Part shown: positions 6,862-58,030 of the stretch, piece by piece | Layout: every line of letters begins with the position of its first letter | How positions within the stretch are numbered: position 1 is the first letter of the stretch | NCBI GenBank assembly: GCA_937125225.1 | Contig: CAKZLE010000020.1 | Location: forward strand, 186,001-250,000 | Source: an uncultured Spirochaetia bacterium | GTDB lineage: Bacteria; Spirochaetota; Spirochaetia; CAKZLE01 | Reading direction: 5' to 3' | DNA: 64,000 nucleotides | Made by a program: the position numbers and the translations under genes | The notes under the pieces: model-generated | Databases searched by the model: none | Told to the model about the DNA's origin: nothing | The model's input: the letters and a program-made list of their open reading frames with translations, nothing else

Positions 6862-6890
6862 TTGAAGGAATAGTTCATGTGAATTATAAT
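6862..6890 (+). promoter_or_regulatory. mnmE promoter, leaderless arrangement
   Basis: TTGAAG (6862-6867), 17 nt spacer, perfect TATAAT (6885-6890). The ATGs at 6895 and 6898 lie 4 and 7 nt beyond the -10 box, so transcription should begin at or in the start codon. No Shine-Dalgarno sequence is possible. Confidence 0.65.
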
Positions 6891-6897
6891 CGCCATG

Positions 6898-8247
6898 ATG
6901 AAATATGCATATTACGATACAGATGACCCTATTGTCGCCTTAGCTACCCCTTGGGGGGAGAGCGCACTAGCTGTGATCAGAGTCTCAGGAACAGCTTCGG
7001 TCGATATGGCAGCTCCCTGTTTCTCGAGACCTGATAGGCTACTTAAGGGAGACTCTCATACTATACACTATATGAACTTCATCGATCCAGCAGATAATAT
7101 GCCGATCGACGAAGTAACCGTTGCCATCTACAGAGCTCCCCATGGGTTCACGGGACAGGACTCTTTGGAGATCTTCTGTCATGGTTCTCTGGTGAGTATC
7201 AAGAAGATACTTGAGACCCTAAAGTCGGTCGGTTTCAGAGACGCAAGACCGGGTGAGTTCACGTTGCGTGCCTTTACCCAGGGGAAACTCGATCTCACTC
7301 AGGCTGAAGCCGTTCAGGAGATCGTCTCTGCGAAATCAAGGCAGGCACATTCTCTGGCTCTTCATCGACTTTCTGGTGGACTCTTCTCCCATATAGATAT
7401 GATCAAGCGAGATCTACTTCTCATATTGAGCCGTATAGAACTTCAACTCGATTATGCTGAGGATGAGGTAGTGCTCGATGAGGAGATCGATGAGATCTCA
7501 CTGCATAAGGCTATCCGGGCTCTAGGCGAGCTTGCTGCGACCTATAGGACCGGTAAGATATTCTCACAGGGAGTCAAGATAGCTCTTGCAGGGCCGACGA
7601 ATGCCGGAAAATCTTCTCTGTTCAATCTGTTTCTCAAAGAGGACCGTTCGATAGTATCAGATATTCATGGTACGACTAGAGACTATATAGAGTCATGGAT
7701 CTCTATAAAGGGTATCCCTGTTCGACTCTATGACACTGCTGGCTTTAGAGCTTCTGTCGATGTGATTGAGGAAGAGGGGATCAGAAGGAGTATTCAACTT
7801 CTTGAAGATTCGGATCTTGTCATCTATATGATCGGAACAGAGGATATCTCTTCACTCATGGAAGAACATCCTGAATATATCTATATCTGGAATAAATCAG
7901 ATATCAGAGAGGGAAACGCCCCAGAAGGGTCGCTACCCCTATGTTCGCTGACTGGGGAGGGATTCTCTGACATCGAGAAGGAGATCATCTCTCGATTGGA
8001 GATCACGAATATCGACAACTCTGGGGAGCATGAGATCATGATTGATTCACTGCGACAGAAGGAACTTTTAGATAGAGGTGTCATTTCTCTTGATAGTGCA
8101 GTGGAGGCCATCGAATCAGGCATGCCTCTTGATGTGGTCGCTCCAGATATTCAAGACTGTATCGATGCTCTTGGAGAGATCACCGGAGAGATCACCTCAG
8201 CAGATATCCTCGACACGATCTTCTCAGGATTCTGTGTAGGGAAATAA
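6898..8247 (+). CDS. mnmE: tRNA modification GTPase MnmE (TrmE)
   Basis: 449 residues from the second of two adjacent ATGs (the alternative is 6895). The N-terminal formyl-THF-binding dimerisation domain begins IVALATPWGESALAVIRVSG. The helical domain carries an inserted G domain: G1 GPTNAGKSSLFN (about residue 230), G2/G3 GTTRDY and DTAG, G4 NKSD. The C-terminus FCVGK is the family's catalytic Cys motif. With MnmG it makes the cmnm5 modification at wobble U34 of tRNAs. mnmG follows after 14 nt, so they form an operon. The promoter position predicts a leaderless mRNA. Confidence 0.96.
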   Translation: MKYAYYDTDDPIVALATPWGESALAVIRVSGTASVDMAAPCFSRPDRLLKGDSHTIHYMNFIDPADNMPIDEVTVAIYRAPHGFTGQDSLEIFCHGSLVSIKKILETLKSVGFRDARPGEFTLRAFTQGKLDLTQAEAVQEIVSAKSRQAHSLALHRLSGGLFSHIDMIKRDLLLILSRIELQLDYAEDEVVLDEEIDEISLHKAIRALGELAATYRTGKIFSQGVKIALAGPTNAGKSSLFNLFLKEDRSIVSDIHGTTRDYIESWISIKGIPVRLYDTAGFRASVDVIEEEGIRRSIQLLEDSDLVIYMIGTEDISSLMEEHPEYIYIWNKSDIREGNAPEGSLPLCSLTGEGFSDIEKEIISRLEITNIDNSGEHEIMIDSLRQKELLDRGVISLDSAVEAIESGMPLDVVAPDIQDCIDALGEITGEITSADILDTIFSGFCVGK

Positions 8248-8261
8248 TAAGGAAGAATTCA

Positions 8262-10070
8262 ATGGATGTAGATGCAATCGTCATCGGGGGCGGACATGCA
8301 GGAATCGAGGCAGCTTTAGCACTCTCTCGATTACAGTTTTCCACACTGATGATAACCCAGAGTCTCGATGCGATAGGGCGACTATCCTGTAATCCAGCAA
8401 TCGGTGGACTCTCTAAGGGGAATATGGTTCGTGAGATCGACGCTCTTGGTGGTGAGATGGGAAATCTCATCGATGAGACGATGATCCAATTCAGAATACT
8501 CAATCGAAGAAGAGGACCAGCAGTCCAGGCCCCTCGGGCTCAGGCTGACAAGTTCAGTTATAATAGATTGGCTAAAGAGACTTTGGAACACCAGAAAGGA
8601 CTCTCTCTCTTTCAAGATACAGTGGTGGACCTCATCCTCGATTCAAGTGGTACCCGTGTGATCGGTGTTGTCACCGAAAGGGGAAGACGCTTCCATGCAA
8701 AGGTCGTAGTCCTCACTACGGGAACCTTTATGGATGGGAAGATATTCATTGGTGAGTATGTTGCCTCGTCAGGAAGACTTGGCGAACCTGCTGCTCTGGG
8801 ATTGGGGACCGCCCTTCGAAGGATGGGCCTGACCCTCGGTCGAATGAAGACAGGGACTCCTGCCCGAGTGAAACGGTCATCTCTTGATTTCGATAAGATG
8901 GAGATCCAGCCGGGAGACTCCCTTATGCAACCTTTCTCCTTCTCCAGAGAGAAGATAGAGAGACCCTCTCTATCCTGCTGGATAACCTTCACTAATGAGA
9001 AGACTCACCAGATCATTCAGGATAATATTCATCGTTCCCCCCTGTATGGTGGGCAGATCGTAGGTCTCGGACCTCGTTATTGTCCATCCCTAGAGGACAA
9101 GGTGGTCAGGTTCCCTGATAGAGACAGACATCAGATCTTCGTCGAACCTGAAGGTATCGGTACAGAGGAGATGTATCTTAACGGGATATCCTCCTCCCTT
9201 CCAGAGGATGTACAGGAAGATTTTATCCACTCTATAGAGGGCCTCGAGGAGGCCGAGATCATGAGAACCGGTTATGCCGTTGAATATGATTATATCGATC
9301 CCACTCAGCTCTATCCTACCTTGGAGTGTAAACAGTTCAAAGGACTCTATGTCGCCGGACAGACCAATGGGACGAGTGGCTATGAGGAGGCTGCAGGACA
9401 GGGGCTCATCGCTGCGATAAATGCAGGCCAATCCCTGCTCGGTAAGGCCCCATTGATCCTCTCGAGGTCTGAAGCCTATATCGGGGTACTCATCGATGAT
9501 CTAGTCACGAAGGGGACCAACGAACCCTACAGGATGTTCACCTCACGTGCTGAATACCGCTTGAACCTCAGACATGATTCTGCAGATCAACGATTGACGA
9601 GGAAGTCCTATGAAATCGGGTTACAGAGCAGTGAGGCCTTAGAACGTCTTGAATATAAACTCAAAGGGATAGAAGAGATAAAAGAGCTTCTCAGGGTGAA
9701 GAAGCATGAGGGGAAGAGCTGGATACAGCACCTCAAACGACCAGAGATGACGATCGATCAGATTGTAGACTCAGTCCCTGAACTGAACTCCTTTGATCCG
9801 GTATATGTGAACCAGGTAGAACTCGATATAAAATATGAGGGTTATATAAAGCGACAAGAACAGCAGGTCAAACGATTCGAACGGATGGAATTCATGAAGA
9901 TTCCCCTTGATTTTGATTATGATGAGATCGAAGGTCTCTCTAATGAATCCAAGGAGAAGTTCAAGAGTGTGCGACCGATGTCTGTAGGACAGGCTTCGAG
10001 GATCTCGGGTGTCAGAAACTCTGATATAGCAGTCTTGATGGTCATATTGGGGAGAAAGAAACGTGGATAA
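8262..10070 (+). CDS. mnmG: tRNA uridine 5-carboxymethylaminomethyl modification enzyme MnmG (GidA)
   Basis: 602 residues, slightly shorter than the usual 620-650. The FAD Rossmann motif VIGGGHAGIEAALAL is at the N-terminus, then the family motif LSCNPAIGGLSKG and, mid-protein, GQTNGTSGYEEAAGQGLIAA. The C-terminal MnmE-binding helical region ends VGQASRISGVRNSDIAVLMV. It is the FAD/NADH partner of MnmE in cmnm5U34 formation. AAGGAAG precedes the ATG. It overlaps rsmG by 8 nt, the common mnmE-mnmG-rsmG arrangement. Confidence 0.97.
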   Translation: MDVDAIVIGGGHAGIEAALALSRLQFSTLMITQSLDAIGRLSCNPAIGGLSKGNMVREIDALGGEMGNLIDETMIQFRILNRRRGPAVQAPRAQADKFSYNRLAKETLEHQKGLSLFQDTVVDLILDSSGTRVIGVVTERGRRFHAKVVVLTTGTFMDGKIFIGEYVASSGRLGEPAALGLGTALRRMGLTLGRMKTGTPARVKRSSLDFDKMEIQPGDSLMQPFSFSREKIERPSLSCWITFTNEKTHQIIQDNIHRSPLYGGQIVGLGPRYCPSLEDKVVRFPDRDRHQIFVEPEGIGTEEMYLNGISSSLPEDVQEDFIHSIEGLEEAEIMRTGYAVEYDYIDPTQLYPTLECKQFKGLYVAGQTNGTSGYEEAAGQGLIAAINAGQSLLGKAPLILSRSEAYIGVLIDDLVTKGTNEPYRMFTSRAEYRLNLRHDSADQRLTRKSYEIGLQSSEALERLEYKLKGIEEIKELLRVKKHEGKSWIQHLKRPEMTIDQIVDSVPELNSFDPVYVNQVELDIKYEGYIKRQEQQVKRFERMEFMKIPLDFDYDEIEGLSNESKEKFKSVRPMSVGQASRISGVRNSDIAVLMVILGRKKRG

Positions 10071-10713
10071 GAGATTAGTAGAGGCTCTTAAGAGCTTAGA
10101 ACTCACCTATGATGAGACTCAGTTGAATGCCCTTGGTCTCTATCTTTCAGAGATCGAGTTCTGGAATCCGACCTATAAACTCATCGCTGCAGATCATGAA
10201 GGGATCATCTATCGCCATATCCTAGACTCCCTTGCACCGCTCTCAATTCTTGAAGAGTCGATAAAGACCCTAACTGGCAATTCTCTCGCAGATCTTGGTT
10301 CGGGTAACGGTATGCCTGGGATACCTCTTTCGATCATGCTCCCTGACTCCCATATGACGCTCATCGAGAGATCAGGAAGGAGAGTAGGATTCTTGAGGAA
10401 TGCCTTGGCTGCTACCTCCCTCTCCGGAAGAGTCTCCATCATCGAAGAGGATATCACTTCAGTACGACAGCAGTTCGATATGCTCCTGTTTCGAGCATTT
10501 CGACCATTGAAGGAGATCTTCGGGTTGCTCGATTCATTATTATTGCCAGGTGGAGTCATGTTCGCCTATAAGGGGCAGTTGAAACAGGTAGAAGAGGAGA
10601 TCGAAGGGATCAGCGCTCTTCTTGAAGGCCGATTCACTGTAGAGAACAGACCCTATGAGATTCCAGGTCTAGAGGCTGAGCGGACGATCTGCCTGATAAC
10701 CAAGTTGAAATAA
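10063..10713 (+). CDS. rsmG: 16S rRNA (guanine527-N7)-methyltransferase RsmG (GidB)
   Basis: 216 residues starting at a GTG inside the end of mnmG (8-nt overlap). ILDSLAPL precedes the SAM-binding motif LADLGSGNGMPGIPLSI (about residues 73-90), followed by LIERSGRRVGFL and FRAFRPLKEI, all typical of RsmG. It methylates N7 of G527 in the 530 loop of 16S rRNA using SAM. Translation is probably coupled to mnmG. Loss of this enzyme gives low-level streptomycin resistance in other bacteria (family knowledge). Confidence 0.95.
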   Translation: MDKRLVEALKSLELTYDETQLNALGLYLSEIEFWNPTYKLIAADHEGIIYRHILDSLAPLSILEESIKTLTGNSLADLGSGNGMPGIPLSIMLPDSHMTLIERSGRRVGFLRNALAATSLSGRVSIIEEDITSVRQQFDMLLFRAFRPLKEIFGLLDSLLLPGGVMFAYKGQLKQVEEEIEGISALLEGRFTVENRPYEIPGLEAERTICLITKLK

Positions 10714-10723
10714 TCGAATTCAC

Positions 10724-10752
10724 TTGAATGAGATATTTTTTCCTTGTATGCT
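10724..10752 (+). promoter_or_regulatory. uppP promoter, leaderless arrangement
   Basis: TTGAAT (10724-10729), 17 nt spacer with a T-run, TATGCT (10747-10752), then 6 nt to the ATG at 10759. The predicted transcription start coincides with the start codon. Confidence 0.5.
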
Positions 10753-10758
10753 AGTGAG

Positions 10759-11550
10759 ATGGAAATATTCAATGCAATCCTCTTAGGAGCAATACAGGGT
10801 GTGACAGAGTTCCTTCCTGTTTCAAGCTCCGGACATCTGCTGCTCATGAAACACTTCTTGGATATGGGAGAAGTACCGATCCTGTTTGATGTACTCCTTC
10901 ATATCGCGACCTTGCTTGTAGTCTTGGGCTTTTTCAGACGACAGATCTTTTCTATCCTGAGAGCCCTCTGGCATTGGGTGCAGAAATCAATCGATACTGA
11001 GGATGCCTACTACCTCAGACTCACAGTGGTGATCATCATCGCGACAGTCTTTACCGTATTGCTTGGCTTTATTCTCAATACCGTTGATTCCCTTCATACC
11101 ACCTCCTCCGTATCAGTGATGTTCATCTTGACGGGCCTTCTGCTGATCTCCACAAAGTTCGTGAAGAGTAGAGAGGATCAAACCCCGAAGAAGAGAAATG
11201 GGATCCTTGTAGGTATTGCACAGGGACTTGGTACTCTTCCAGGGATATCTCGATCCGGAATAACGATTACTGCTGCTCTTTGGGGAGGGATAGATAGAGA
11301 AAAGGCCGGAGAACTTTCCTTCCTTCTTTCGATTCCTGCAATCCTCGGTGCCTTTATACTGGAGATCGGTGAGAGTGGAACTCTTACCTCCCAGATGCAC
11401 ATAAGTGCTATTCTTATAGGCTGCCTTTCAGCGATCATCTCCGGTATACTGAGTCTGAAACTGTTACTTTGGCTGATCAGATCTGGAAAACTCTATTTCT
11501 TCAGTATCTATCTGATTCCACTTGGTATCATCGGCCTTATATGGCTATAA
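10759..11550 (+). CDS. uppP: Undecaprenyl-diphosphate phosphatase UppP (BacA)
   Basis: 263 residues from the ATG at 10759, where MEIFNAILLGAIQGVTEFLP begins exactly like the family; a TTG at 10744 lies inside the promoter. Catalytic motifs are VTEFLPVSSSGHL near the N-terminus and ISRSGITITAALWGG (PGxSRSG-like) at about 157-175. There are about eight hydrophobic membrane segments. It dephosphorylates undecaprenyl-PP to recycle the lipid carrier for peptidoglycan and polysaccharide, a carrier the manC/Wzz locus at 17754 would also need. Confidence 0.95.
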   Translation: MEIFNAILLGAIQGVTEFLPVSSSGHLLLMKHFLDMGEVPILFDVLLHIATLLVVLGFFRRQIFSILRALWHWVQKSIDTEDAYYLRLTVVIIIATVFTVLLGFILNTVDSLHTTSSVSVMFILTGLLLISTKFVKSREDQTPKKRNGILVGIAQGLGTLPGISRSGITITAALWGGIDREKAGELSFLLSIPAILGAFILEIGESGTLTSQMHISAILIGCLSAIISGILSLKLLLWLIRSGKLYFFSIYLIPLGIIGLIWL

Positions 11551-11551
11551 T
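11522..11551 (+). promoter_or_regulatory. Candidate ftsK promoter inside the end of uppP
   Basis: TTGGTA (11522-11527), 18 nt spacer, TATAAT (11546-11551), the last base lying just past the uppP stop codon. It would give ftsK a leader of about 35 nt containing its GGGGGGAG site. Confidence 0.45.
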
Positions 11552-11591
11552 ACGAGAAAAGAGATAAAATCTTATTGAGAAGGGGGGAGAT

Positions 11592-14048: not shown

Positions 14049-14058
14049 GAAGTTATTC

Positions 14059-15398: not shown

Positions 15399-15428
15399 TT
15401 GACCCCGTAGGATGCTGGTGGCTATACT
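15399..15428 (+). promoter_or_regulatory. Promoter of the 7TM-LuxR gene, leaderless arrangement
   Basis: TTGACC (15399-15404), 18 nt spacer, TATACT (15423-15428), 6 nt, then ATG at 15435. The AAAGG just before the ATG could be mistaken for a ribosome site but abuts the start codon. Confidence 0.6.
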
Positions 15429-15434
15429 CAAAGG

Positions 15435-16313
15435 ATGAGTTGGCCAACAATAAATCTAGTTCTTTACATCTTCGCATTTTCAGTCGGTTCGATGACCCTC
15501 TGTCTCGGTATCCTCTTTCACCTGCGTAAAAGCTATGATTGGACGAAATATTATCTCATATTTCAGATTGCTATCACCTTTTTGCTGCTTATCTTCGGAC
15601 TGCGTAATTTTACCGGAGTGATGACTGGAGAACTCTCTCCTGCCTTCAATCTTATCACTTTATTGATGTTATATCTGGCAATCGCATTCTTAGTCTACTT
15701 CATTCCCTATTTCACCACCTGGGTCATTGCCCATCCTTGGCGTAATCCTTATAAGACGGTATTTCTCATTCTTGGTATATGCTTCATTGGATTGACGGTT
15801 CTCGGGACCATATTGGGGTTCTTATTTCTGATTCGTCTATTCATGAGCCTCATATTCTTCGGTGTCTTCATCTTCTGTCTGGGAGTCATCCTCAAGAACC
15901 TTCGATCTATCAAGGATCAGGGGGTGAGAATGATCTGCAGTGCGATACTCATCCTCTCTGTCATCATGGTCCCTGTCATCGTGATAGATCTGTTCATCTC
16001 CTTCGAGAGTCTATCGACTATCCCGATCTACTACTTCTGGATCTCATTGATCATTCTCGTCTATCTGTTTACCTATTTTCGGAGTATCCCTGAATCAGCG
16101 AAGGTCGCTATCGATGAGAAGAAGATCGAGGAGTATAGGATCACAGGAAGGGAGCGAGAGATCATCCTTCTTATACAGAAGGGGTTTATCAGTAAAGAGA
16201 TAGCACAGGCTCTTGATATATCGACGAGTACCGTGAATAACCATATCTCCAATATCTATGGGAAGACTCATGTGAGCAGCCGAATTGACCTGCTCAATGA
16301 ACTGACCTGCTGA
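15435..16313 (+). CDS. Membrane-bound LuxR-family regulator (seven-TM sensor plus HTH)
   Basis: 292 residues. Seven hydrophobic segments fill residues about 8-225, with hardly any soluble loop. They are followed directly by a LuxR/GerE helix-turn-helix: ITGREREIILLIQKGFISKEIAQ then STSTVNNHISNIYGKTHVSSR (about 233-285). This is a one-component transcription factor that would bind DNA while anchored in the inner membrane, sensing something in or across the membrane. An esterase gene starts 8 nt after the stop, so the two are likely one operon. Signal and targets are unknown. Confidence 0.82.
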   Translation: MSWPTINLVLYIFAFSVGSMTLCLGILFHLRKSYDWTKYYLIFQIAITFLLLIFGLRNFTGVMTGELSPAFNLITLLMLYLAIAFLVYFIPYFTTWVIAHPWRNPYKTVFLILGICFIGLTVLGTILGFLFLIRLFMSLIFFGVFIFCLGVILKNLRSIKDQGVRMICSAILILSVIMVPVIVIDLFISFESLSTIPIYYFWISLIILVYLFTYFRSIPESAKVAIDEKKIEEYRITGREREIILLIQKGFISKEIAQALDISTSTVNNHISNIYGKTHVSSRIDLLNELTC

Positions 16314-16321
16314 GGTACCAT

Positions 16322-17461: not shown

Positions 17462-17717
17462 AAACAAAGAGTAGCATCAGTTTCCCATAATTGACATTCA
17501 GTATGACTAAGAATAACTTTAGTATAATTAAGTATAATGGTTAAAAATAAAAAATCTCAGGTCGTCGACTTCTAGGTGTAATCCCCCCATTTCACTACTA
17601 CTTAAGATATCTGACGAGGAATAAAGGGGTAACGAAAAGCTCTCTTGGAGAAAGCCCGATACTATACAATAAAAGGTCTGAGGAGAGCCTGAAACGGTCA
17701 AAGTATGAAGATTCTGA
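17462..17717. other. AT-rich intergenic region between the XRE regulator and manC
   Basis: No gene seen. It has TTGACA at 17491-17496 and a direct repeat of AGTATAAT (17521-17528, 17531-17538). About 100 nt further on, GCTCTC (17639-17644) can pair with GAGAGC (17683-17688), or locally with GAGAAAGC. CCCCCC near 17584 can pair with GGGG near 17636. It could hold a small RNA or regulator sites; there is no T-tract terminator and it matches no RNA family I know. Confidence 0.3.
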
Positions 17718-17746
17718 TTGACGTATGGGGGTTGTTATCGTAGAGT
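17718..17746 (+). promoter_or_regulatory. manC promoter, leaderless arrangement
   Basis: TTGACG (17718-17723), 17 nt spacer with a G-run, TAGAGT (17741-17746), 7 nt, ATG at 17754. The in-frame TTG at 17718 that could be taken for a start codon is the -35 box. Confidence 0.5.
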
Positions 17747-17753
17747 AGATACT

Positions 17754-18776
17754 ATGAAACATACAATTTGCATTATGGCCGGGGGAGGCGGAACACGCCT
17801 TTACCCACTCTCTCAGACAGAAGAGGGGAAACTACCCAAACAGTTCCTATCAGTGATCAAAGGGAATACCCTGTTACAGAAAGCTATTGCCAGGATTTCT
17901 GAATCCTACGATGTGGTTGTCATACCTGAAGAGCGGTATAGCAAGGTCGTGATCGAACAGGCTGAGGCAATCAGTCGATCAGTCGAATTGATCGATGAAC
18001 CCTTTGGTTGTAATACGGCAGCTGCGATCCTCTACACCGCAGCACTACAGCAGGATCCTCAGCGAGTGCTCTGTTTTATTCCTGCTGACCATGAGATGGA
18101 TACAGATGTGTTTAGAGAGCTTATCGATCGTGCTGTAGCGGTTGCAGAGAAAGAGGATCGTATGGTTACTCTGGGTATCAAACCAACGAAACCCGAGACC
18201 AATTATGGGTATATCAAGATCGTAGAGGGGCAATCAGATAAGAGTACTTGTGAAGTCGAGAGGTTTGTTGAGAAGCCTGACAGCAAGAGGGCAGCCGCCT
18301 ATCTTGAAGATGGTGGGTACTATTGGAATGCAGGTATTTTTGCTGCAAAGGCTTCAGTGTTCATAGAATCGGCTCAGGCAGTCTGTCCTGATATACTAGC
18401 ACCACTGCTAAAAGCTGCTGATCCTTCAGATCCAATGACTCAGACTGATGCATATACATCGCTAAAGAGTCAGAAATTGAACAAGTCCATAGACTATGCT
18501 CTCATGGAGAAGATTGCAGACTCTATTCTTTTGATCCCTGCTCCAGTTGAACTTCTATGGAATGATCTCGGTAATTGGGAATCATTACGAGCCTATATGT
18601 CTCTAGATGAATCTGAGAATGCCGTCTTTGAGGATAATGTCACCTTTGAGAATAGTCACGGTATGACGGTCTGCAACTATACTGACCTTCCTGTTGTCGT
18701 CAAAGGTATGGAAAAGGTTCTTGTAGTCGTTACTGATCAGGGGGTTTTGATCAGACCCATCGATGAAGATATCTGA
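17754..18776 (+). CDS. manC: Mannose-1-phosphate guanylyltransferase
   Basis: 340 residues from the ATG at 17754. MAGGGGTRLYPLSQ (nucleotide-binding loop), KLPKQFL, FIPADHEMD (metal Asp region), TNYGYIK, VERFVEKPD, YYWNAGIF and the final LWNDLGNWESL are all characteristic of GDP-mannose pyrophosphorylases. Only the transferase domain is present, without the C-terminal phosphomannose-isomerase domain of longer ManC proteins. It makes GDP-mannose from GTP and mannose 1-phosphate for surface glycans. It heads the locus continued by the Wzz-kinase and its phosphatase. Confidence 0.92.
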   Translation: MKHTICIMAGGGGTRLYPLSQTEEGKLPKQFLSVIKGNTLLQKAIARISESYDVVVIPEERYSKVVIEQAEAISRSVELIDEPFGCNTAAAILYTAALQQDPQRVLCFIPADHEMDTDVFRELIDRAVAVAEKEDRMVTLGIKPTKPETNYGYIKIVEGQSDKSTCEVERFVEKPDSKRAAAYLEDGGYYWNAGIFAAKASVFIESAQAVCPDILAPLLKAADPSDPMTQTDAYTSLKSQKLNKSIDYALMEKIADSILLIPAPVELLWNDLGNWESLRAYMSLDESENAVFEDNVTFENSHGMTVCNYTDLPVVVKGMEKVLVVVTDQGVLIRPIDEDI

Positions 18777-24087: not shown

Positions 24088-24116
24088 TTGTTGTTAGTTG
24101 TAAAAACATATATAGT
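24088..24116 (+). promoter_or_regulatory. Helicase promoter, leaderless arrangement
   Basis: TTGTTG (24088-24093), 17 nt spacer, TATAGT (24111-24116), 7 nt (GGTTTTT), ATG at 24124; no ribosome site. Confidence 0.55.
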
Positions 24117-24123
24117 GGTTTTT

Positions 24124-25938
24124 ATGAAATTTAGTGAATTACAATTAACAGAACAATCATTCATCGGTATAAAAGATGCTGGGTTTGAAAACTGCATGCC
24201 TGTTCAGGAGAGAGTCTTTACTCACTCATTGAAAGGTAAAGATGTCATGGTACAGTCTCAGACTGGAACAGGAAAGACAGCAGCATTCCTCATTACCATA
24301 TTTGAACAGTATGCAAAACGTCCCGAAGGGACAGACTACAAAGCATTGATCATCGTTCCAACAAGAGAGCTGGCAGTACAGATCGAACAAGATGCTAATA
24401 TGCTCTCAAAGGGGCTACCAGATCTCGTAGTAGGAACATTCTACGGTGGTGTAGGGTACAAGAAGCAGGATGAACTGCTTAAGAAAGGTGTAGATATCTT
24501 TATCGGAACACCGGGAAGACTCCTTGATTACGAAAAAGCACGAAAGATAGATTATAAGAAGATGGATATGATCGTTGTAGATGAGGCTGATCGCCTATTC
24601 GACATGGGCTTCTATCCAGATATCAGAGACATGTTCAAGAAGATGCGAAATCGAGAGCAACGACAGACTATGCTCTTCAGTGCGACGATGACAGTACGTG
24701 CAAGAAACCTTGCATGGGACTTCCTCAACGAACCTGAGGAGATTGAGATCGAACCTGAGACCATCACCGTGAAAGAGATCAATCAGGAACTCTTTCATGT
24801 GAGTAAATCTGAGAAATCACAGTTACTCTTAAGAATATTGGCAAAACGGGCACCTAAAAGTGCAATTGTCTTTACCAATACCAAATCGATGGCAGTAGAG
24901 ATAGCTAAAAGACTCGAACTCAATGGTTATGAGGCTCATGCACTCATGGGTGATCTCCCTCAGAATAAACGACTTCAGATTGTGAACCAAATGAAAAAGG
25001 GTGAGATCAAATTTCTCGTTGCGACAGATGTTGCTGCAAGAGGGTTGCATGTCGATGATCTTGAACTCGTTGTCAACTATGATATCCCTGAAGATTTTGA
25101 GAACTATGTCCATAGGATCGGAAGGACCGCAAGGGCTGGAAAGAGTGGCTCTGCTGTAACCTTGGCCTGTGAACAGTTCGTCTATGGACTAGAGAATATT
25201 GAAGCTTATATTCAAATGAAGATTCCTGTTGTCTGGGCAGACGAAGAGACCTTTCCCATGGTCAACGATAAGAGTGCACATCTTTCCTTCAGACAGCTTG
25301 TAAAAGACTATCGTGGATCGGGACAGAGACGGACTACCTCTCAACAATCAAGAGGTCAAGGTCGTCAGGGTGGTTCCTCTACAAACAGGGGACCTAATAG
25401 ACAGGGTTCAAGACCTCCTCGACCGGCTTCATCTAATCCGTCAGAGCAAAGACCTCGACCTGATTCTCGTAATCGGTCAGAGCAAAGACCTCGACAGGGA
25501 AAGGCTCCGAATAATGTTCAGAGTAAAGGTGTTGGAACAGGTCAGGCCATAAGAAGACCTGCTAGTCACAATCTGAAAGGACAGAGTGCACAGCACAAGA
25601 GTCTCAAACAGATTGAACAGATGTCTTTTGAAGATCGACTTGCATATTACAAGAATGCCTATGGGGGAGACCTACAGGCAGAGAAGGCTTCAAAGCAGCA
25701 GAAACGACCACAACAGAAAAGTGGTAAGCCAGCTTCTCAGAATAATTCTGGCAAACCTCAGAGTGGAAGACCTCAGAACAGATCTGCGAAACCTCAGAAT
25801 GGTTCCCAGGCTCAGAAGAACAAAACCCCTCAGAATAAGAAGCCAAAAGAAGCGGTAGTACAGAAATCCTCACCAACGGCTGAGAAAAATATAAAGAAAC
25901 CAAAAAAAGGTTTTATCGCGAGAATATTCGGAAAATAG
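24124..25938 (+). CDS. DEAD-box ATP-dependent RNA helicase with long disordered tail
   Basis: 604 residues from the ATG at 24124, where MKFSELQLTEQSFIGIKDAG gives the usual N-terminus and Q motif (PVQERV). Motifs: QSQTGTGKTAAF (I), PTRELAVQ (Ia), TPGRLLDY (Ib), VDEADRLFDMGF (II, DEAD), FSATM (III), FVATDVAARGLHVDDL (V), HRIGRTARAG (VI). From about residue 395 a low-complexity tail rich in Q, R, S, P, K and N runs to the end, with a tandem in-frame repeat SEQRPRxDSRNR/SEQRPRQ. It probably remodels RNA or ribosomes. The ABC exporter gene starts at the next base after the stop. Confidence 0.93.
   Translation: MKFSELQLTEQSFIGIKDAGFENCMPVQERVFTHSLKGKDVMVQSQTGTGKTAAFLITIFEQYAKRPEGTDYKALIIVPTRELAVQIEQDANMLSKGLPDLVVGTFYGGVGYKKQDELLKKGVDIFIGTPGRLLDYEKARKIDYKKMDMIVVDEADRLFDMGFYPDIRDMFKKMRNREQRQTMLFSATMTVRARNLAWDFLNEPEEIEIEPETITVKEINQELFHVSKSEKSQLLLRILAKRAPKSAIVFTNTKSMAVEIAKRLELNGYEAHALMGDLPQNKRLQIVNQMKKGEIKFLVATDVAARGLHVDDLELVVNYDIPEDFENYVHRIGRTARAGKSGSAVTLACEQFVYGLENIEAYIQMKIPVVWADEETFPMVNDKSAHLSFRQLVKDYRGSGQRRTTSQQSRGQGRQGGSSTNRGPNRQGSRPPRPASSNPSEQRPRPDSRNRSEQRPRQGKAPNNVQSKGVGTGQAIRRPASHNLKGQSAQHKSLKQIEQMSFEDRLAYYKNAYGGDLQAEKASKQQKRPQQKSGKPASQNNSGKPQSGRPQNRSAKPQNGSQAQKNKTPQNKKPKEAVVQKSSPTAEKNIKKPKKGFIARIFGK
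25440..25495 (+). repeat. In-frame direct repeat in the helicase tail
   Basis: A 20-nt unit beginning GTCAGAGCAAAGACC occurs at 25440-25459 and again at 25476-25495, a 36-nt (12-codon) period encoding SEQRPR twice. Confidence 0.7.
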
Positions 25939-30405: not shown

Positions 30406-31353
30406 ATGAAAAAGTTAGATACCTATGCAGATATGAGGGCAGTCTATGCAGATACTCTCATTGAAATAGCAAAAGATGATGATAAAGTAGTTGTTATGGA
30501 TGCAGACCTTATGGCTGCAAATGGAACAAAAGGCTTCAAGGATGCCTATCCTGATCGAATGATCAATGCAGGAGTGGCAGAGGCTAATATGGTTGGTGTT
30601 GCAGCTGGATTGGCATCACAGGGATTCATCCCCTTTGCATCAACATTCGGATGTTTTGCAGCTAGAAGAGCCTATGATCAGTTCTTCCTGTCAGCTAACT
30701 ACGCTAAACAGAATGTGAAACTTGTCGGATCTGACCCTGGAGTGACTGCACAGTTCAACGGTGGAACTCATATGCCGTTTTGTGACATCACACTCATGAG
30801 AGTCATTCCTAATCTCGTAGTACTTGATCCTTGTGATACAGTCTCCCTTCATAAACTGACTAAAGCAATATATGAATATAAGGGACCTGTCTATATGCGT
30901 CTACATCGTAAGGGTGCAACGACTATCTACAAAGATGATCAGGAGTTCGAGATCGGTAAGGGTGTAGTCATCAAAGATGGAACTGATGTTACTCTCATCG
31001 CTAATGGATTGGTCATGGTAACCGAGGCTATCAAGGCTGAAAAGGCATTAGCAGCTGAAGGAATCAGTGCTGCAGTCATCGATATGCATACCATCAAACC
31101 TCTTGATGAGGCACTTGTTGCTGAATATGCCAAGAAGACCGGTGCTATCGTCACCTGTGAGAATGGCCAGAAGATCGGAGGGCTCGGTGGAGCTGTCAGT
31201 GAATATCTGTCAGAGAATATGCCAACACTCATGAAACGTGTAGCGGTAGATGACGTATTCGGAGAAGTTGGGACTCAGGACTACCTGCAGGAGCGATTCG
31301 GACTAACCTCTGAAAAGATCGTTGAGGCAGCAAAGTCTTTGGTCAAGAAATAA
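30406..31353 (+). CDS. Transketolase, C-terminal subunit
   Basis: 315 residues. VVVMDADLMAANGTKGF, INAGVAEANMVGVAAGLAS (the Glu that activates ThDP), FASTFGCFAARRAYDQ, then a C-terminal domain with VIDMHTIKPLDE and TCENGQKIGGLGGAVSEYL. It completes the split transketolase. Starts 2 nt after the N-terminal subunit. Followed by a strong terminator at 31375-31407. Confidence 0.93.
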   Translation: MKKLDTYADMRAVYADTLIEIAKDDDKVVVMDADLMAANGTKGFKDAYPDRMINAGVAEANMVGVAAGLASQGFIPFASTFGCFAARRAYDQFFLSANYAKQNVKLVGSDPGVTAQFNGGTHMPFCDITLMRVIPNLVVLDPCDTVSLHKLTKAIYEYKGPVYMRLHRKGATTIYKDDQEFEIGKGVVIKDGTDVTLIANGLVMVTEAIKAEKALAAEGISAAVIDMHTIKPLDEALVAEYAKKTGAIVTCENGQKIGGLGGAVSEYLSENMPTLMKRVAVDDVFGEVGTQDYLQERFGLTSEKIVEAAKSLVKK

Positions 31354-37349: not shown

Positions 37350-38285
37350 TTATGCGAGTATCATCATGATCGTGATATAGAGAATCAGGGTGACTACTGT
37401 ATAGATCACTAATGCATTGTTATAGAACTGATTAGCCTTTTTCTCTGATTTCGGTAGAAATACCGGGATCACAAAAGGAGGAGGCAGTACGATGAAGGTG
37501 ATGAATGCATTTCTCATGAGCGTATCGAGCTTCATGATATAGGCATCTGTTATGAACATGAACAGAAGTCCCAAGACCCAGACTACTAAGAGCCGTAACC
37601 CGATCAGCTTGAAGGATTCCTTCAGCCCAGTCTTCTCGAACTTCAGCTGGAATCCAATAACAAGAAGGATCAGAGGTGAGGTCATATCTGCAACCATCTG
37701 AAATGCACGTAGGGCACCCTCGGTGATTCTGTATTTATCGACTGCTTCAAAGGCTCCTGATAGATTAAACAGCAAGGCTGAGAGGATAGCGATGATCAGA
37801 GGTGAGCTGAGAAACGATCTGATCACTGACAGGATATTCAGTTTGCCTTCACTTTTGAATTGTAGTGCAGGAACATAGAAGAACCAGATGAATAGTTCAT
37901 GGCCTAATCCAAGTAACAGGATCGCATAGAGGTTCTCTGCTCCAAAAAGACTGGAGAAAAGAGCTACTCCCACCATTCCGAATTCGAAACCGGTGTAGAA
38001 GAACTCAGAATAGGGATGAACACAGATCTTAGACCTTTTAAAGATGATTCCTGCAAAGAAGAGCAGAAAGCAGTAGGCGATAGTCGCTATGAACAATGAT
38101 ATATAGGAACTCTTGAGTTCCATTGTGAGGAACGAGATGAAAAGCGTTGCCGGTAGAGTGATCGTCACGATCAGTTTCTTGATATCATCTACGAAGTTCT
38201 TGGTCAGGAGACCTGTCTTTCTTAGGAGGAATCCTGTGAGAAGCAGGATGAATATCGGAATGAATTTACTTATAAGTTCTGTCAT
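37350..38285 (-). CDS. AEC-family transporter (auxin efflux carrier-like permease)
   Basis: 311 residues with ten predicted hydrophobic segments in two five-helix halves. The start ISKFIPIFILLLTGFLLRKTG and the mid-protein block LIIAILSALLFNLSGAF are typical of the PF03547 family, whose bacterial members carry malate, malonate or other organic anions. The start ATG lies 6 nt beyond a good -10 box and has no ribosome site, so the mRNA is predicted to be leaderless. Convergent with guaA. Confidence 0.85.
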   Translation of the reverse strand: MTELISKFIPIFILLLTGFLLRKTGLLTKNFVDDIKKLIVTITLPATLFISFLTMELKSSYISLFIATIAYCFLLFFAGIIFKRSKICVHPYSEFFYTGFEFGMVGVALFSSLFGAENLYAILLLGLGHELFIWFFYVPALQFKSEGKLNILSVIRSFLSSPLIIAILSALLFNLSGAFEAVDKYRITEGALRAFQMVADMTSPLILLVIGFQLKFEKTGLKESFKLIGLRLLVVWVLGLLFMFITDAYIMKLDTLMRNAFITFIVLPPPFVIPVFLPKSEKKANQFYNNALVIYTVVTLILYITIMMILA

Positions 38286-38291
38286 GGCCCC

Positions 38292-38320
38292 ATTGTAACT
38301 TCCATCATCTCTTTGGTCAA
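38292..38320 (-). promoter_or_regulatory. AEC transporter promoter, leaderless arrangement
   Basis: On the minus strand: TTGACC (38320-38315), 17 nt spacer, TACAAT (38297-38292), 6 nt (GGGGCC), ATG at 38285. Confidence 0.65.
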
Positions 38321-40703: not shown

Positions 40704-41393
40704 TTAAGCGAAATGTTTATCATGTAGTTCAGGCCGTTTGATGCTGTTTCTGATCCAATCATAGAGTAGTTCTAATCTCTCTCGTTCGGATAGGCTCAGA
40801 TCGACCTCTGAAGTTCTCAGTGCATGGGTAATATGGTGAAGAGTCATAGCACAGGAGACTGAGATATTGAAACTCTCGACGAAACCATACATGGGAATCT
40901 TCATATACTCATCGGCTAGATCTAAGGCTGTATCACTGAGGCCGGTCAATTCAGTACCGAACATAAGAGCCATCTTGCCCTTCGTGACATCAAGATCTTC
41001 AAGGTTCACGTCATTGTTATGGGGACTTGTAGCAATGATCCTGTATCCATCACTCTTCAATTTCTTGATTGCTTCTACGGTATTGTTGGTATTGCTTTCT
41101 CTGTGTCTGTTGATCGTCAGCCATTGACTGGTGCCGAGTTCAATACTCTTATTTAGATGGAAGTTGTTCTTATTCTCTATAATATGGACATCCTGGACAC
41201 CAAACCCATCACAGCTACGAAGGACCGCACTCGCATTATGGGGTTGGAAGATATCCTCAAGAACTACTGAGACATGACGTGTCCGCTGCTTGAGGACCTC
41301 TGTGACCCGAGAGAGGCGCTCTTGTGTGATGAGTTCTCCAAAGTAGGCGATCCTTTCCTCTAACTGGCTGTCTGTAAACGATTCATTATTCAT
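40704..41393 (-). CDS. trmH: SpoU/TrmH-family RNA 2'-O-methyltransferase
   Basis: 229 residues from the ATG at 41393, which suits a leaderless transcript; an ATG at 41399 is only 2 nt from the -10 box. SPOUT knot motifs: VVLEDIFQPHNASAVLRSCDGFG, KMALMFGTELTGLSD and MYGFVESFNISVSCAMTLH. It matches TrmH (tRNA Gm18 methyltransferase) in length and N-terminal extension better than RlmB, though another 2'-O-ribose target is possible. It stands alone, divergent from aspartokinase. Confidence 0.85.
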   Translation of the reverse strand: MNNESFTDSQLEERIAYFGELITQERLSRVTEVLKQRTRHVSVVLEDIFQPHNASAVLRSCDGFGVQDVHIIENKNNFHLNKSIELGTSQWLTINRHRESNTNNTVEAIKKLKSDGYRIIATSPHNNDVNLEDLDVTKGKMALMFGTELTGLSDTALDLADEYMKIPMYGFVESFNISVSCAMTLHHITHALRTSEVDLSLSERERLELLYDWIRNSIKRPELHDKHFA

Positions 41394-41401
41394 GGTCATA
41401 G

Positions 41402-41407
41402 ATTATA
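41402..41407 (-). promoter_or_regulatory. trmH -10 box, leaderless arrangement
   Basis: A perfect TATAAT on the minus strand, 8 nt before the ATG at 41393. The -35 is less clear (TTGCAT at a short 15-nt spacing). Confidence 0.45.
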
Positions 41408-50951: not shown

Positions 50952-50978
50952 TCACATAACGCTGGAGGATGATGCCCC

Positions 50979-52433
50979 ATGCAGATAGGTGGTTTTTCGA
51001 TTATCTATATTATCTCATTCGTGCTGGCTGTATCCTTCAGTATACAGCTGCTGTTTGATAATAAGACAGCCCAGTCCTCTCTGGCATGGATCATGGCGAT
51101 GTTTCTCATTCCCTATATCGGTGTCGGGGCATATGTCCTCAGTGGTATCAATTGGCGAAAGAAGAAACTGGTGAAATTCAGACCTGAAGAGATGTATGGT
51201 ACCTATCTTCGTGAGATCCTATCTCAACAACGGGAGCTCATCAATGAGAAGAAGGAGTACATCGGGTCTGATACTCATAAGATCATGATGATGACCATGA
51301 AGACCGCTAACGGGGTCATCATGGGGAACAATGATATCAATGTCTATCATCAGGGAGATCAACTCTTCAAGGATCTTATCCGAGACCTCGAAGCAGCTGA
51401 AGAGTCAATTCATATCGAATATTTCATCTACCGTGATGATGAGATCGGTAAGGAGATCCTCTCTATTCTCAAGCGGAAGGCCTCAGCTGGAGTCGAAGTC
51501 AGATTCCTCGTGGATGGATCGGGGTCGAAATTCACCTTCACCAAGAGAGGGAGAAGAAGACTGAGGAAGAGTGATGTAGAATATCGGAACTTCCTTGATC
51601 CCGGTAATATCATCTTCGCCTGGCTTCTAAACTACAGCTCTCATAGGAAGATCGTCATCATCGATAACAAGATCTCCTATACCGGTGGGATGAACATCGG
51701 AAAAGAATATATAGATGGTGGTAGGCGATTCGATACCTGGCGTGATACCCACATGAGATTCGTAGGGAATGCCTCGGGGATCCTTCAATCGATCTTCTTG
51801 GCCGATTGGGTGAATAGTGGTGGGATCATCGATGATCCTGAGAGATTCTTCAAGAAACTCGACCTCAAATCTAAAGTGGTGAATCTAACCGGAGTGCAGA
51901 TGCTCTCAAGCGGACCGGATTCTGACTGGTTTGGGATACAGCAACTCTATTTCACGATGATCACCAATGCAAACAACAAGGTCGTCATCCAGAGTCCCTA
52001 CTTCATCCCTGATGAGAGTATCGCTACGGCTCTTGAGAATGCGGCGCTCACCGGAGTGGATGTGAATCTTATGATCACTGGATGTCCAGATAAGAGGATA
52101 CCCTTCTGGGCGGCACACTCCTTCTTCGAACCCCTGTTGAAAGCAGGTGTCAAGATATTTCTCTATAAGGCAGGCTTCTTTCACAGTAAGGTGGTAGTCA
52201 TCGATGAGAAGGTCGCGACCTGTGGGAGTTGCAATATGGATCAGAGGAGCTTCTTCTTAGATTATGAGCTGAACACGATCTTCTACAATGAGAGGATCGC
52301 TAAGGAGTTCTCAGATCAGTTCGATAGGGATTGCGAACTCAGTGAACAATTCACTCTTGAGAGTTATCACAACCTGTCAGCCGTCAAGAAGTTGCGGAAT
52401 TCAGTCTTTCGCCTGATATCGCCGCTCTTGTGA
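50979..52433 (+). CDS. cls: Cardiolipin synthase (phospholipase D type)
   Basis: 484 residues. Two N-terminal membrane helices (about 4-25, 34-56). Two HKD motifs: HRKIVIIDNKISYTGGMNIG (about 222) and HSKVVVIDEKVATCGSCNMD (about 403), each followed by the usual Gly/Asn loop. IQSPYFIPDESI is also typical. It condenses two phosphatidylglycerols into cardiolipin and glycerol in the inner membrane. GGAGG lies 10 nt before the ATG. Co-transcription with glpK is likely. Confidence 0.93.
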   Translation: MQIGGFSIIYIISFVLAVSFSIQLLFDNKTAQSSLAWIMAMFLIPYIGVGAYVLSGINWRKKKLVKFRPEEMYGTYLREILSQQRELINEKKEYIGSDTHKIMMMTMKTANGVIMGNNDINVYHQGDQLFKDLIRDLEAAEESIHIEYFIYRDDEIGKEILSILKRKASAGVEVRFLVDGSGSKFTFTKRGRRRLRKSDVEYRNFLDPGNIIFAWLLNYSSHRKIVIIDNKISYTGGMNIGKEYIDGGRRFDTWRDTHMRFVGNASGILQSIFLADWVNSGGIIDDPERFFKKLDLKSKVVNLTGVQMLSSGPDSDWFGIQQLYFTMITNANNKVVIQSPYFIPDESIATALENAALTGVDVNLMITGCPDKRIPFWAAHSFFEPLLKAGVKIFLYKAGFFHSKVVVIDEKVATCGSCNMDQRSFFLDYELNTIFYNERIAKEFSDQFDRDCELSEQFTLESYHNLSAVKKLRNSVFRLISPLL

Positions 52434-52456
52434 TATCTGTAAGGAGACTCTATACT
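52428..52456 (+). promoter_or_regulatory. cdaA promoter, leaderless arrangement
   Basis: TTGTGA (52428-52433, over the cls stop), 17 nt spacer, TATACT (52451-52456), 8 nt, TTG at 52465. Confidence 0.5.
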
Positions 52457-52464
52457 AGGTATTA

Positions 52465-53307
52465 TTGGATACGATGAACAAGGAGCTGAGCTTGGGTGAT
52501 TTACTAGAGATTTGGTATGTGAAGGATATCATCATACCGGTTATCGATATTGCGATTGTAGCATTCTTACTATACAAGGTGTATACCACGGTATCCCAGA
52601 CGAACGCTGTACAGATGATCAAGATATTCGTCTATATGGCGTGCCTTTATCTGTTGGCATACCTACTGCAACTATCAACGATACTCTGGGGCTATAAGAA
52701 CCTGACCCCCATCATCATCATCATATTGGCCATCATCTATCAGCCGGAACTCAGAAGAGCCTTCACTAGGCTTTGGAGTGGTGGTAGAGGGCTCTTTAGG
52801 TTCGGTTCCCAGACGACTAGTGAACAGATAGACACGATCATAAATGCTTTGGATGTTCTCTCAACGAAGAGAAGAGGTGCATTGATCGTCTTTCCGAGAA
52901 AACTCGGAGTGAAGGGGATCTTGGAATCAGGGACACGTTTGAATGCAGATCTGTCGAGTGCACTCCTTCTTACGATATTCGACCATGACACACCTCTTCA
53001 TGATGGTGCGGTACTGGTACAGGGACGTAAAGTCCTCTCTGCAGGTTGTTTTCTCCCTTTGAGTGAGCAGGCAGATATCAGAAAGAGTTTTGGAGCAAGA
53101 CATAGAGCGGCTCTTGGTATGGCAGAGGATACCGATGCGGTAGTCCTCATCGTCTCAGAAGAGACTGGGGCTATGTCTCTAGCCTATAATGCCAATCTCT
53201 ATTATGATCTCGTTCCTGATACGATACATAAGATGCTCATAGCACTCTTGAACTACTATGATGTGACACCAGAAGAGATAGAGGAGGCCCATGATGAAGC
53301 AGAATAG
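52465..53307 (+). CDS. cdaA: Diadenylate cyclase CdaA (c-di-AMP synthase)
   Basis: 280 residues from the TTG at 52465 (ATG at 52474 is the alternative). Three N-terminal membrane helices (about 18-85), then the DisA_N domain with its two signatures: TPLHDGAVLVQGRKV (DGA) and SFGARHRAALGMAEDTDAV (RHR). It condenses two ATP into cyclic di-AMP, which controls potassium and osmolyte balance and wall homeostasis. The YbbR-domain gene overlaps by 17 nt, the standard CdaA-CdaR pairing. glmM, common in Firmicutes, is absent here. Confidence 0.94.
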   Translation: MDTMNKELSLGDLLEIWYVKDIIIPVIDIAIVAFLLYKVYTTVSQTNAVQMIKIFVYMACLYLLAYLLQLSTILWGYKNLTPIIIIILAIIYQPELRRAFTRLWSGGRGLFRFGSQTTSEQIDTIINALDVLSTKRRGALIVFPRKLGVKGILESGTRLNADLSSALLLTIFDHDTPLHDGAVLVQGRKVLSAGCFLPLSEQADIRKSFGARHRAALGMAEDTDAVVLIVSEETGAMSLAYNANLYYDLVPDTIHKMLIALLNYYDVTPEEIEEAHDEAE

Positions 53308-53698: not shown

Positions 53699-54066
53699 TA
53701 CTCGGTATGGGACTTGATATCGTAGATGTCAAGCGAATGGAAAGGCACTGTGATGATGAGAACTTCATGAGAAGATTTCTTCATGACCAAGAATATGAGG
53801 AGATCCTAAAGAGTGAAGAATCCCCTGCTATGCTCTTAGCTTCACGGTTTGCCGTCAAAGAGGCTTTTGGGAAGGCTGTCGGGGTCGGCCTACGGGGAAT
53901 CTCTCTAAAAGATATTCAGTTAGATCATGATGGGTTGGGTAAACCTGTCTTGACCCTTCATAATACTGCGAAACAAAAGGCAACAGCTCTTGGTGTGAAT
54001 CATATTCATCTCTCCCTATCTCATGAAGCACAGATAGCTGCTGCTGTCGTGATCTTAGAGAGTTGA
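53695..54066 (+). CDS. acpS: Holo-[acyl-carrier-protein] synthase
   Basis: 123 residues, normal size. ILGMGLDIVDVKRMERH holds the Mg-binding Asp, and LASRFAVKEAFGKAVGVG the Glu and Lys of the CoA site (family RFAAKEA). HLSLSHEAQIAAAVVI closes the fold. It transfers phosphopantetheine from CoA to acyl-carrier protein for fatty-acid synthesis. Coupled to ybbR by an ATGA overlap; truA begins 3 nt after the stop. Confidence 0.94.
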   Translation: MILGMGLDIVDVKRMERHCDDENFMRRFLHDQEYEEILKSEESPAMLLASRFAVKEAFGKAVGVGLRGISLKDIQLDHDGLGKPVLTLHNTAKQKATALGVNHIHLSLSHEAQIAAAVVILES

Positions 54067-54069
54067 CTC

Positions 54070-55513: not shown

Positions 55514-55522
55514 GAGTCATCA

Positions 55523-57478
55523 TTGTTCATAGAGGTCCTCTTCAATCTACCGCTACATACCTCCTTCACCTATGAGACCAATGAAAAGGATCATTGTGAA
55601 GTGGGCTTCCGTGTCATGGCCCCGATCAAGAATCGAAACCTTACCGGTTTCGTCATCTCGGTAAGTGAGACCTTCGAGGCGACTTATCAGATCAAGAAGA
55701 TCAAACGAGTCATCGATAAGGAGTCTCTGTTTGGACAGGAGGAGATCGAACTGGCCTCTTGGATATCCTCATTGTATCTCTGTTCTCAGGGTGAGGCTCT
55801 CTCGGTCATGATCCCGGGAGGGAGAAGAGAGATAGAGGTTCCCTCTCTTGGCATAGAGGATACCCCCTCTAGTTCTGGTCTGATCCTCTCTGAACATCAG
55901 AAAGAGGCTATTAAAAGTATTTTAGCTCATGAGAATGATCTCTATTACCTCTTCGGTGTGACAGGTTCAGGGAAGACAGAGGTCTTTCTTCAGACAGCTC
56001 AGAAGATGATAGAAGAGGGTAAGAGTATCATCTATCTTGTCCCAGAGATCTCTTTGACACACCAACTAGCGGCTATGGTCAATCAACGATTCCCAGATGA
56101 TGTTGCGATCCTACACTCCTCCTTGACCCCTTCTCAAAGGCTAAAGGAGTGGAGAAGGATCAGAAAGGATGAGGTGCATCTGATCATCGGAGCAAGGAGT
56201 GCGATCTTCGCTCCTTGTAAGGATATCGGGATGATCATCATCGACGAGGAGCATGAGAACAGTTATAAATCTGGTTCGACTCCTCGGTATCATGCGAGAC
56301 AGATAGCGATGAAGAGAGCTGCATTGCATGATGCGGTCGTGGTCATGGGAAGTGCTACCCCATCCTTAGAGGCCTGGAGACTGATGGGGACAGGAAGAAT
56401 CAAACGTCTTGATCTGCCCAATAGAGTGTCTGGAGGATCGATGCCTGCTATCGAGATCGTCAATATAAGCGGTAATCCGAATATTCTCTCAAAGACACTT
56501 GTCAAAGGAATTCAGGAGGTCCTCGCAAAGGAGAAACAGGCTATCCTTTTTCTTAACAGAAGGGGATTCTCATACTTCTTTCATTGCAGGACCTGCGGGT
56601 ATGAGATGCATTGTCGCGATTGCTCAGTACCCTTGACCTATCATAAGCATAAACATCGCATGGTCTGTCACTACTGTGGCTATTCAGAGAGACCGATCAC
56701 CTCCTGCCCCTCCTGTGGCTCAGTCGATGTCGGGTATTCAGGCTTTGGGACGGAATTAGTCGAGGATACGGTGCGACAGACCTTTCCTCAAGCAAGGATC
56801 GGGAGACTAGATGCTGATGTCACCAAGGATAAGAAGCAACTCAAGGAGATCCTTGATAGCTTCTCTACCGGAGAACTCGATATACTTCTCGGTACCCAGA
56901 TGGTTGCTAAAGGACTCAACTTCCCCAATGTGGAATTAGTCGGTATCGTCCTTGCTGACAGTGGGCTCCATCTTCCCGATTTTCGGGCACAGGAGAGAAC
57001 CTTCTCATTGTTGCTGCAGGTTGCAGGACGATCGGGACGTTTCAGTGATGACGGAAAGGTGATCATCCAGACCTATCATCCGGAGAACGCTGCGATTCAG
57101 GCTGCCGCATCAGGAGAACTAGAGGCCTTCTATGAAGAGGAACTCCAGATGAGGTCACAACTCGAATTCCCTCCTATGACAAGACTCTGTCGATTGGTCT
57201 TCAGGTCTTCACAGTTGGACAAGGTTCGAAAAGCAGCTGATACTGCTGCTGATATCATGTATGGACTCATCGATGAACTCGAATACCGAGATGTCGACAT
57301 CCTTGGCCCTGCAGAGGCTCCGATAGCGAAGATCTCTAGCAATTATCGTTATCAGGTGCTTGTACGTTCAGCTGATTTCAAACGACTTCATAAGACTGTG
57401 GGTTATCTTTCCTCTGTCTACAAACCTGAAGGGAGAGTCTATCTTGAGATCGACTTCGATCCTGTTAACTTACTCTGA
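55523..57478 (+). CDS. priA: Primosomal protein N' (replication restart helicase PriA)
   Basis: 651 residues from a TTG with TAGGAG 6 nt upstream. N-terminal 3'-DNA-binding domain (FIEVLFNLPLHTSFTY), helicase motifs GVTGSGKTEVFL, IIDEEHENSYKS and GSATPSLEAWRL. The zinc-binding module CRTCGYEMHCRDC ... CHYCGYSERPITSCPSCG has eight Cys. Helicase C-terminal LLGTQMVAKGLNFPNVELV and QVAGRSGRF follow. It reloads the replisome at stalled forks. It follows the udg gene by 9 nt. Confidence 0.95.
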   Translation: MFIEVLFNLPLHTSFTYETNEKDHCEVGFRVMAPIKNRNLTGFVISVSETFEATYQIKKIKRVIDKESLFGQEEIELASWISSLYLCSQGEALSVMIPGGRREIEVPSLGIEDTPSSSGLILSEHQKEAIKSILAHENDLYYLFGVTGSGKTEVFLQTAQKMIEEGKSIIYLVPEISLTHQLAAMVNQRFPDDVAILHSSLTPSQRLKEWRRIRKDEVHLIIGARSAIFAPCKDIGMIIIDEEHENSYKSGSTPRYHARQIAMKRAALHDAVVVMGSATPSLEAWRLMGTGRIKRLDLPNRVSGGSMPAIEIVNISGNPNILSKTLVKGIQEVLAKEKQAILFLNRRGFSYFFHCRTCGYEMHCRDCSVPLTYHKHKHRMVCHYCGYSERPITSCPSCGSVDVGYSGFGTELVEDTVRQTFPQARIGRLDADVTKDKKQLKEILDSFSTGELDILLGTQMVAKGLNFPNVELVGIVLADSGLHLPDFRAQERTFSLLLQVAGRSGRFSDDGKVIIQTYHPENAAIQAAASGELEAFYEEELQMRSQLEFPPMTRLCRLVFRSSQLDKVRKAADTAADIMYGLIDELEYRDVDILGPAEAPIAKISSNYRYQVLVRSADFKRLHKTVGYLSSVYKPEGRVYLEIDFDPVNLL

Positions 57479-57484
57479 AATTCA

Positions 57485-57514
57485 TTGACCATTACCAACC
57501 ATTTTATGTATCAT
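57485..57514 (+). promoter_or_regulatory. def promoter, leaderless arrangement
   Basis: TTGACC (57485-57490), 18 nt spacer, TATCAT (57509-57514), 6 nt, ATG at 57521. The in-frame TTG at 57485 is the -35 box. Confidence 0.55.
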
Positions 57515-57520
57515 ACAGAC

Positions 57521-58030
57521 ATGTTAGAAATAGTGACGATTGGTGAAGAAGTACTGCGAGAGAAGGCAAAACCCATTAAATCTTTCGGATCCGAACTGCG
57601 TATCCTTGTTGATGCCATGTTCGAATCTATGGAGATGGATAATGGGATCGGTCTAGCCGCTCCTCAGATCGCAGTACCAAAGAGAATGTTTGTTGTACAT
57701 CCCCCTGATGATGAGGCAAGGGTGTTCATTAATCCTGAGATCATAGAGACCTCTCAAGAGGTCGTTTCCTATGAAGAGGGTTGCTTGAGTGTGCCCGGAG
57801 TCTTCTCTGAGGTCGTAAGACCTGCAGGAATTACCATCCAGGCTCAAGACCTTGAAGGGAAGGCCTTTGTTCTGAAAGCTCAAGGTATGCTTGCCAGAGT
57901 GATCCAGCACGAGAATGATCATCTGAATGGGATCCTGTTCGTCGATAGACTTCCTGAAGAGCGAAGAGAGCAGGTGATGAAGATCTATGAGAAGAAACAG
58001 AAGAACAAAAGGCGAAAGAAGACTGTATGA
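57521..58030 (+). CDS. def: Peptide deformylase
   Basis: 169 residues from the ATG at 57521, which matches the family's MLEIVTIGEEVLREKAKPI start. Motif 1 GIGLAAPQIAV, motif 2 EEGCLSVPG (metal Cys), motif 3 VIQHENDHLNGILF (HExxH). It removes the formyl group from nascent proteins. fmt overlaps by 4 nt (ATGA), the usual def-fmt pairing. Preceded by a leaderless-type promoter. Confidence 0.95.
   Translation: MLEIVTIGEEVLREKAKPIKSFGSELRILVDAMFESMEMDNGIGLAAPQIAVPKRMFVVHPPDDEARVFINPEIIETSQEVVSYEEGCLSVPGVFSEVVRPAGITIQAQDLEGKAFVLKAQGMLARVIQHENDHLNGILFVDRLPEERREQVMKIYEKKQKNKRRKKTV

Follow-up and report, generated by a model that had tools for sequence, protein, structure and literature searches.

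A minority of the promoter-proximal genes of this uncultured spirochaete is very probably transcribed as leaderless mRNA from ordinary sigma70-type promoters. We analysed a window of 64 kb (positions 186001–250000 of contig C20, from a draft genome of 3.43 Mb) together with a larger sample of the same genome and of its relatives. The FtsK-like protein encoded in the window, whose best segments are 45–69% identical to those of uncultured Spirochaetia in a public genome set, identifies the organism as a spirochaete. At standard promoters +1 lies some 6–7 nt past the -10 element, which in the layout described here is the A of the ATG, and it is from this usual distance that the 5' end of the transcript would be placed at the ATG. 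A sigma70-type promoter would thus be set so that transcription starts on, or within ~2 nt of, the AUG, leaving an mRNA without room for a Shine-Dalgarno (SD) sequence. Judging from other bacteria (summarised in PMC10783764), initiator tRNA and IF2 would then take the place of SD pairing in the ribosome's recognition of the AUG at the 5' end, while most other genes, above all those internal to operons, would initiate through SD. The same genes could in addition be transcribed with a leader from promoters lying farther upstream.

The main evidence is the distribution of distances between -10 elements and start codons. Our sample of this genome comprised 1.22 Mb in stretches (a third of the genome) with 673 promoter-proximal genes, called by a simple home-made coding-potential finder, and a fixed E. 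coli-like -35/-10 matrix was scored at every distance from ATGs near the starts of these genes. Since first-pass starts based on coding potential hid several cases, every in-frame ATG close to the start was considered, and ATGs out of frame served as the control. At a score of at least 8, spacers of 5, 6, 7 and 8 nt were represented by 7, 25, 9 and 3 promoters in front of in-frame ATGs; counts then fell into a trough across spacers of 9–19 nt (6, 2, 3, 1, 1, 1, 3, 1, 5, 2 and 4) and climbed again from ~20 nt, where the leadered genes lie. The genome-wide clustering predicted by the preliminary description is therefore present in the third of the genome sampled, as a sharp peak at 5–8 nt. At a score of at least 7 there were 63 matches in the four peak positions, of which ~20 are chance matches as estimated from the trough, compared to 40 in eight trough positions (p = 7e-9). 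The same threshold gave 20 matches in the peak and 5 in the trough in the sister genus (p = 2e-6), the peak was significant in five other families (p = 0.001–0.02), and the same peak at 6–7 nt appeared among ~350 promoter-proximal genes taken from 80 named loci of spirochaetes. ATGs in the other two frames gave a flat profile without a peak (3, 4, 3 and 5 at spacers of 5–8 nt), and the same procedure applied to 250 kb of E. coli at score 7 returned none of 140 genes. Neither GTG nor TTG starts showed a 5–8 nt peak in this genome, where the leaderless class uses AUG only; a few GTG cases occur in relatives.

It could be argued that -35/-10 look-alikes are frequent in AT-rich intergenic DNA and that those near ATGs were simply picked out. 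There is a clear chance background at scores 6–7, and the share of matches is slightly higher in the window than in the rest of the genome sample (7/37 vs 55/636 promoter-proximal genes, p = 0.07), as would be expected if striking cases had drawn the eye. However, the peak, the trough, the frame control, the E. coli control and the conservation between genera all stand against chance, which is extremely unlikely as a general explanation and for the class as a whole is already refuted. Chance may still account for the weak single cases discussed below (the DEAD-box helicase and trmH).

A good -35 element was found 16–18 nt from 27.5% of the peak -10 elements, a share that drops to 2.0% and 1.3% when control gaps are used (p ~1e-18, all sampled genomes pooled), and the peak -10 elements are therefore promoters and not mere AT-rich sequence. 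This bears on a second alternative, in which the AT-rich hexamer is an unstructured or S1-binding stretch within a longer leader, transcribed from farther upstream and initiating independently of SD. Initiation of this kind, via low structure or S1, has been proposed for other bacteria (PMC5397173), and there is an open frame of 574 aa that carries five S1 repeats. We nevertheless consider this very unlikely, as the signal consists of both promoter elements at the correct 17-nt gap, is confined to a window of a few nucleotides and is absent at out-of-frame ATGs.

Leaderless transcription at the peak genes is further consistent with the sequence around their starts. An SD of at least 4 nt precedes 3/44 peak genes, as against 542/860 of the others (p = 3e-14); part of this difference follows from the layout itself, as a -10 element so placed leaves little room for an SD. 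As at transcription start sites, the A of the ATG is preceded by a pyrimidine in 37/44 peak genes, compared to 352/542 (p = 0.012). A search for the anti-SD tail of 16S rRNA returned solely matches with two mismatches. The transcripts might also carry very short leaders of 2–5 nt instead of strictly none, given that spacers vary from 5 to 9 nt among relatives and that in Leptospira about half of ~440 such genes have a leader of <2 nt and the rest leaders of up to 10 nt. However, the modal spacer is 6 nt here and 6–7 nt in the sister genus, and with this spacing a standard promoter would start transcription at the A of the ATG; we therefore regard short leaders as very unlikely to be the general case.

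Leaderless genes appear to be a minority class, amounting to ~6–10% of promoter-proximal genes. After subtraction of the trough, their share is ~6% in this genome, 10% in the sister genus and 8–13% across the five other families; these are lower bounds, because weak or non-sigma70 promoters escape detection, and approximate, because they depend on a home-made gene finder and count only E. coli-like promoters. Seven of the 37 promoter-proximal genes in the window were detected at a score of at least 7, most of the others having an SD. Leaderless transcription had been called systematic in the preliminary description, which is too strong a term since SD dominates among promoter-proximal genes in both the genome sample and the window. 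Further candidates include regulators (AraC, TetR and sigma54 activator types), transporters, leucyl-tRNA synthetase, a LonB-type protease and EPSP synthase, with no one function prominent.

A leaderless layout is also seen at genes for an AI-2E family transporter (L155:9630–9690, and about 10540–10600 on the minus strand of L190), in which an inverted repeat, CCTTGTTTTCCAAGG, lies between -35 and -10 and is kept in both genera; it is a possible operator. We also observed divergent gene pairs whose two members both have a leaderless appearance and stand back to back across an intergenic stretch of 80–130 nt (L155:4736–4817 and 13791–13875; L190:13455–13585). The pair at L155:4736–4817 includes a TetR-type regulator, and a palindrome-like sequence, ATACCGATCGGTAT, lies at the promoter of this gene.

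Leaderless transcription best explains the sequence of the individual promoters in the window. Pairs of -35 and -10 elements had been described previously at eight genes, with gaps of 17–18 nt and the -10 ending 6–8 nt before a start codon without an SD. All hexamers, gaps and coordinates hold, and the spacing is 6–7 nt before an ATG lacking an SD in seven of the eight, one of them weak, the eighth (cdaA) being SD-led; Pfam agrees with the names given to the listed genes. The mnmE promoter (6862..6900, plus strand; TTGAAG-17-TATAAT) is followed by two ATGs, at 4 nt (6895) and 7 nt (6898) from the -10; the start of its relatives aligns with 6898, from which leaderless initiation is predicted, and the sister genus shares the layout. 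The predicted leaderless genes on the plus strand further include uppP (10724..10761; TTGAAT-17-TATGCT, 6 nt before ATG 10759), a LuxR-type regulator (15399..15437; TTGACC-18-TATACT, 6 nt before ATG 15435), a manC-like nucleotidyl transferase (17718..17756; TTGACG-17-TAGAGT, 7 nt before ATG 17754) and def (57485..57523; TTGACC-18-TATCAT, 6 nt before ATG 57521), whose promoter lies in the priA-def gap and would give a leaderless def-fmt mRNA. On the minus strand, an AEC transporter is predicted to be leaderless from TTGACC-17-TACAAT (38283..38320), 6 nt before ATG 38285. The DEAD-box helicase (24088..24126, plus strand) is a possible case, with a weak promoter (TTGTTG-17-TATAGT, 7 nt before ATG 24124) that scores only 6.7. 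A further TATAAT had been noted 8 nt before an ATG of the SpoU/TrmH methylase gene trmH; it is indeed found 5' of ATG 41393 (41391..41407, minus strand), and with a score of 7.3 the gene is borderline leaderless. The TTG codons at 17718 and 57485, tempting as starts, are as previously proposed the -35 boxes of the manC and def promoters, and gene-finding programs that rely on an SD will place starts wrongly at such sites in these genomes.

Two further promoter-like features in the window were observed. Between the end of a minus-strand ORF at 17467 and manC there are two TATAAT boxes 10 nt apart (17520–17540; TATAATTAAGTATAAT), with no gene start close downstream. A promoter-like pair at 30460–30500 lies 7 nt before an ATG (30496) inside a gene that is itself SD-led; chance or an internal start is the probable reason.

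The leaderless assignment of cdaA was rejected. Its promoter (52428..52494, plus strand; TTGTGA-17-TATACT) has a -10 that stands 8 nt from a TTG at 52465, but cdaA orthologues begin at the position matching 52492, here a TTG located 6 nt past AAGGAG, and in the sister genus the equivalent site is an ATG preceded by a 6-nt SD match. The gene is most simply read as SD-led, with a leader of ~30 nt.

The leaderless layout is conserved beyond this genome at particular genes. Of 13 leaderless genes of the sister genus, G001, whose orthologues fall within our sample of this genome, ten are also leaderless here, at 48–80% protein identity. The layout of manC is shared with G001 and G003, and uppP is leaderless in G001, G040 and G006 and SD-led in most remaining relatives; at greater depth manC, uppP and cdaA were leaderless only at the background rate. 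Beyond the family, the leaderless layout is found at def in 18/28 genomes representing 15/22 families (p ~1e-10 against a rate of 10%), and at mnmE in 12/28 genomes representing 11/22 families (p ~3e-6). This pattern suggests that certain genes alternate between SD-led and leaderless starts while others retain a leaderless one.

For def, gene order may provide the explanation. The window contains priA-def-fmt (55523–58977), and fmt directly follows def in 30/30 spirochaete loci; the association of an upstream priA with a leaderless def came to 16/21, compared to 1/9. Because of this association, a short conserved priA-def gap, rather than function, may lie behind the leaderless layout of def, and the def transcript could also arise by read-through from priA. 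The genes def and fmt encode the deformylase and the Met-tRNA formyltransferase, and both their layout and their adjacency are conserved. A more speculative and rather unlikely scenario is that leaderless initiation is ancestral in Spirochaetia and has been selectively retained at particular genes; as formylated initiator tRNA and IF2 are considered necessary for this mode of initiation, the def-fmt operon could then sense and adjust formylation. Whatever its cause, the persistence of this layout across families at def and mnmE offers a handle on why some genes keep it.

Leaderless genes in spirochaetes are a known phenomenon, and the added result is their gene-specific conservation at def and mnmE; a light search of the literature, incomplete in its coverage, turned up no report of deep conservation at individual genes in Spirochaetia. 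The earlier view that leaderless mRNAs are not generally described in this group is outdated. Differential RNA-seq of Leptospira interrogans found ~440 genes with a start site no more than 10 nt from the start codon, 184 of them exactly there (Zhukova et al. 2017, PMC5243855), and leaderless (TA-led) genes were predicted in 6 of 18 Spirochaetes genomes, at a mean of 3.9% of genes (Zheng et al. 2011, PMC3160421). High-frequency leaderless transcripts are mentioned in passing in a paper on the Borrelia ribosome (PMC10618245); the word 'leaderless' is absent from a Borrelia paper on RNA ends (PMC10319736).

The present case resembles that of L. interrogans, a member of the same phylum in which a sizeable promoter-proximal minority has its transcription start on the start codon or no more than 10 nt from it, although the starts were measured there and are inferred here, on a different branch of the phylum. 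Only sigma54, and no general sigma70 motif, was reported for L. interrogans (PMC5243855), in contrast to the clear -35/-10 pairs found here. The present survey broadens the range of leaderless genes from Leptospira to numerous uncultured Spirochaetia. The TA-led genes (PMC3160421) likewise lack an SD and have a Pribnow box ~10–12 bp ahead of the start codon; unlike that survey, our analysis was made per promoter-proximal gene and orthologue by orthologue, with -35, frame and outgroup controls. The leaderless transcriptomes of Mycobacterium and Deinococcus also have the promoter -10 just before the start codon, and the literature cited in PMC5243855 and PMC3160421 attributes to them a larger leaderless share than the minority found here.
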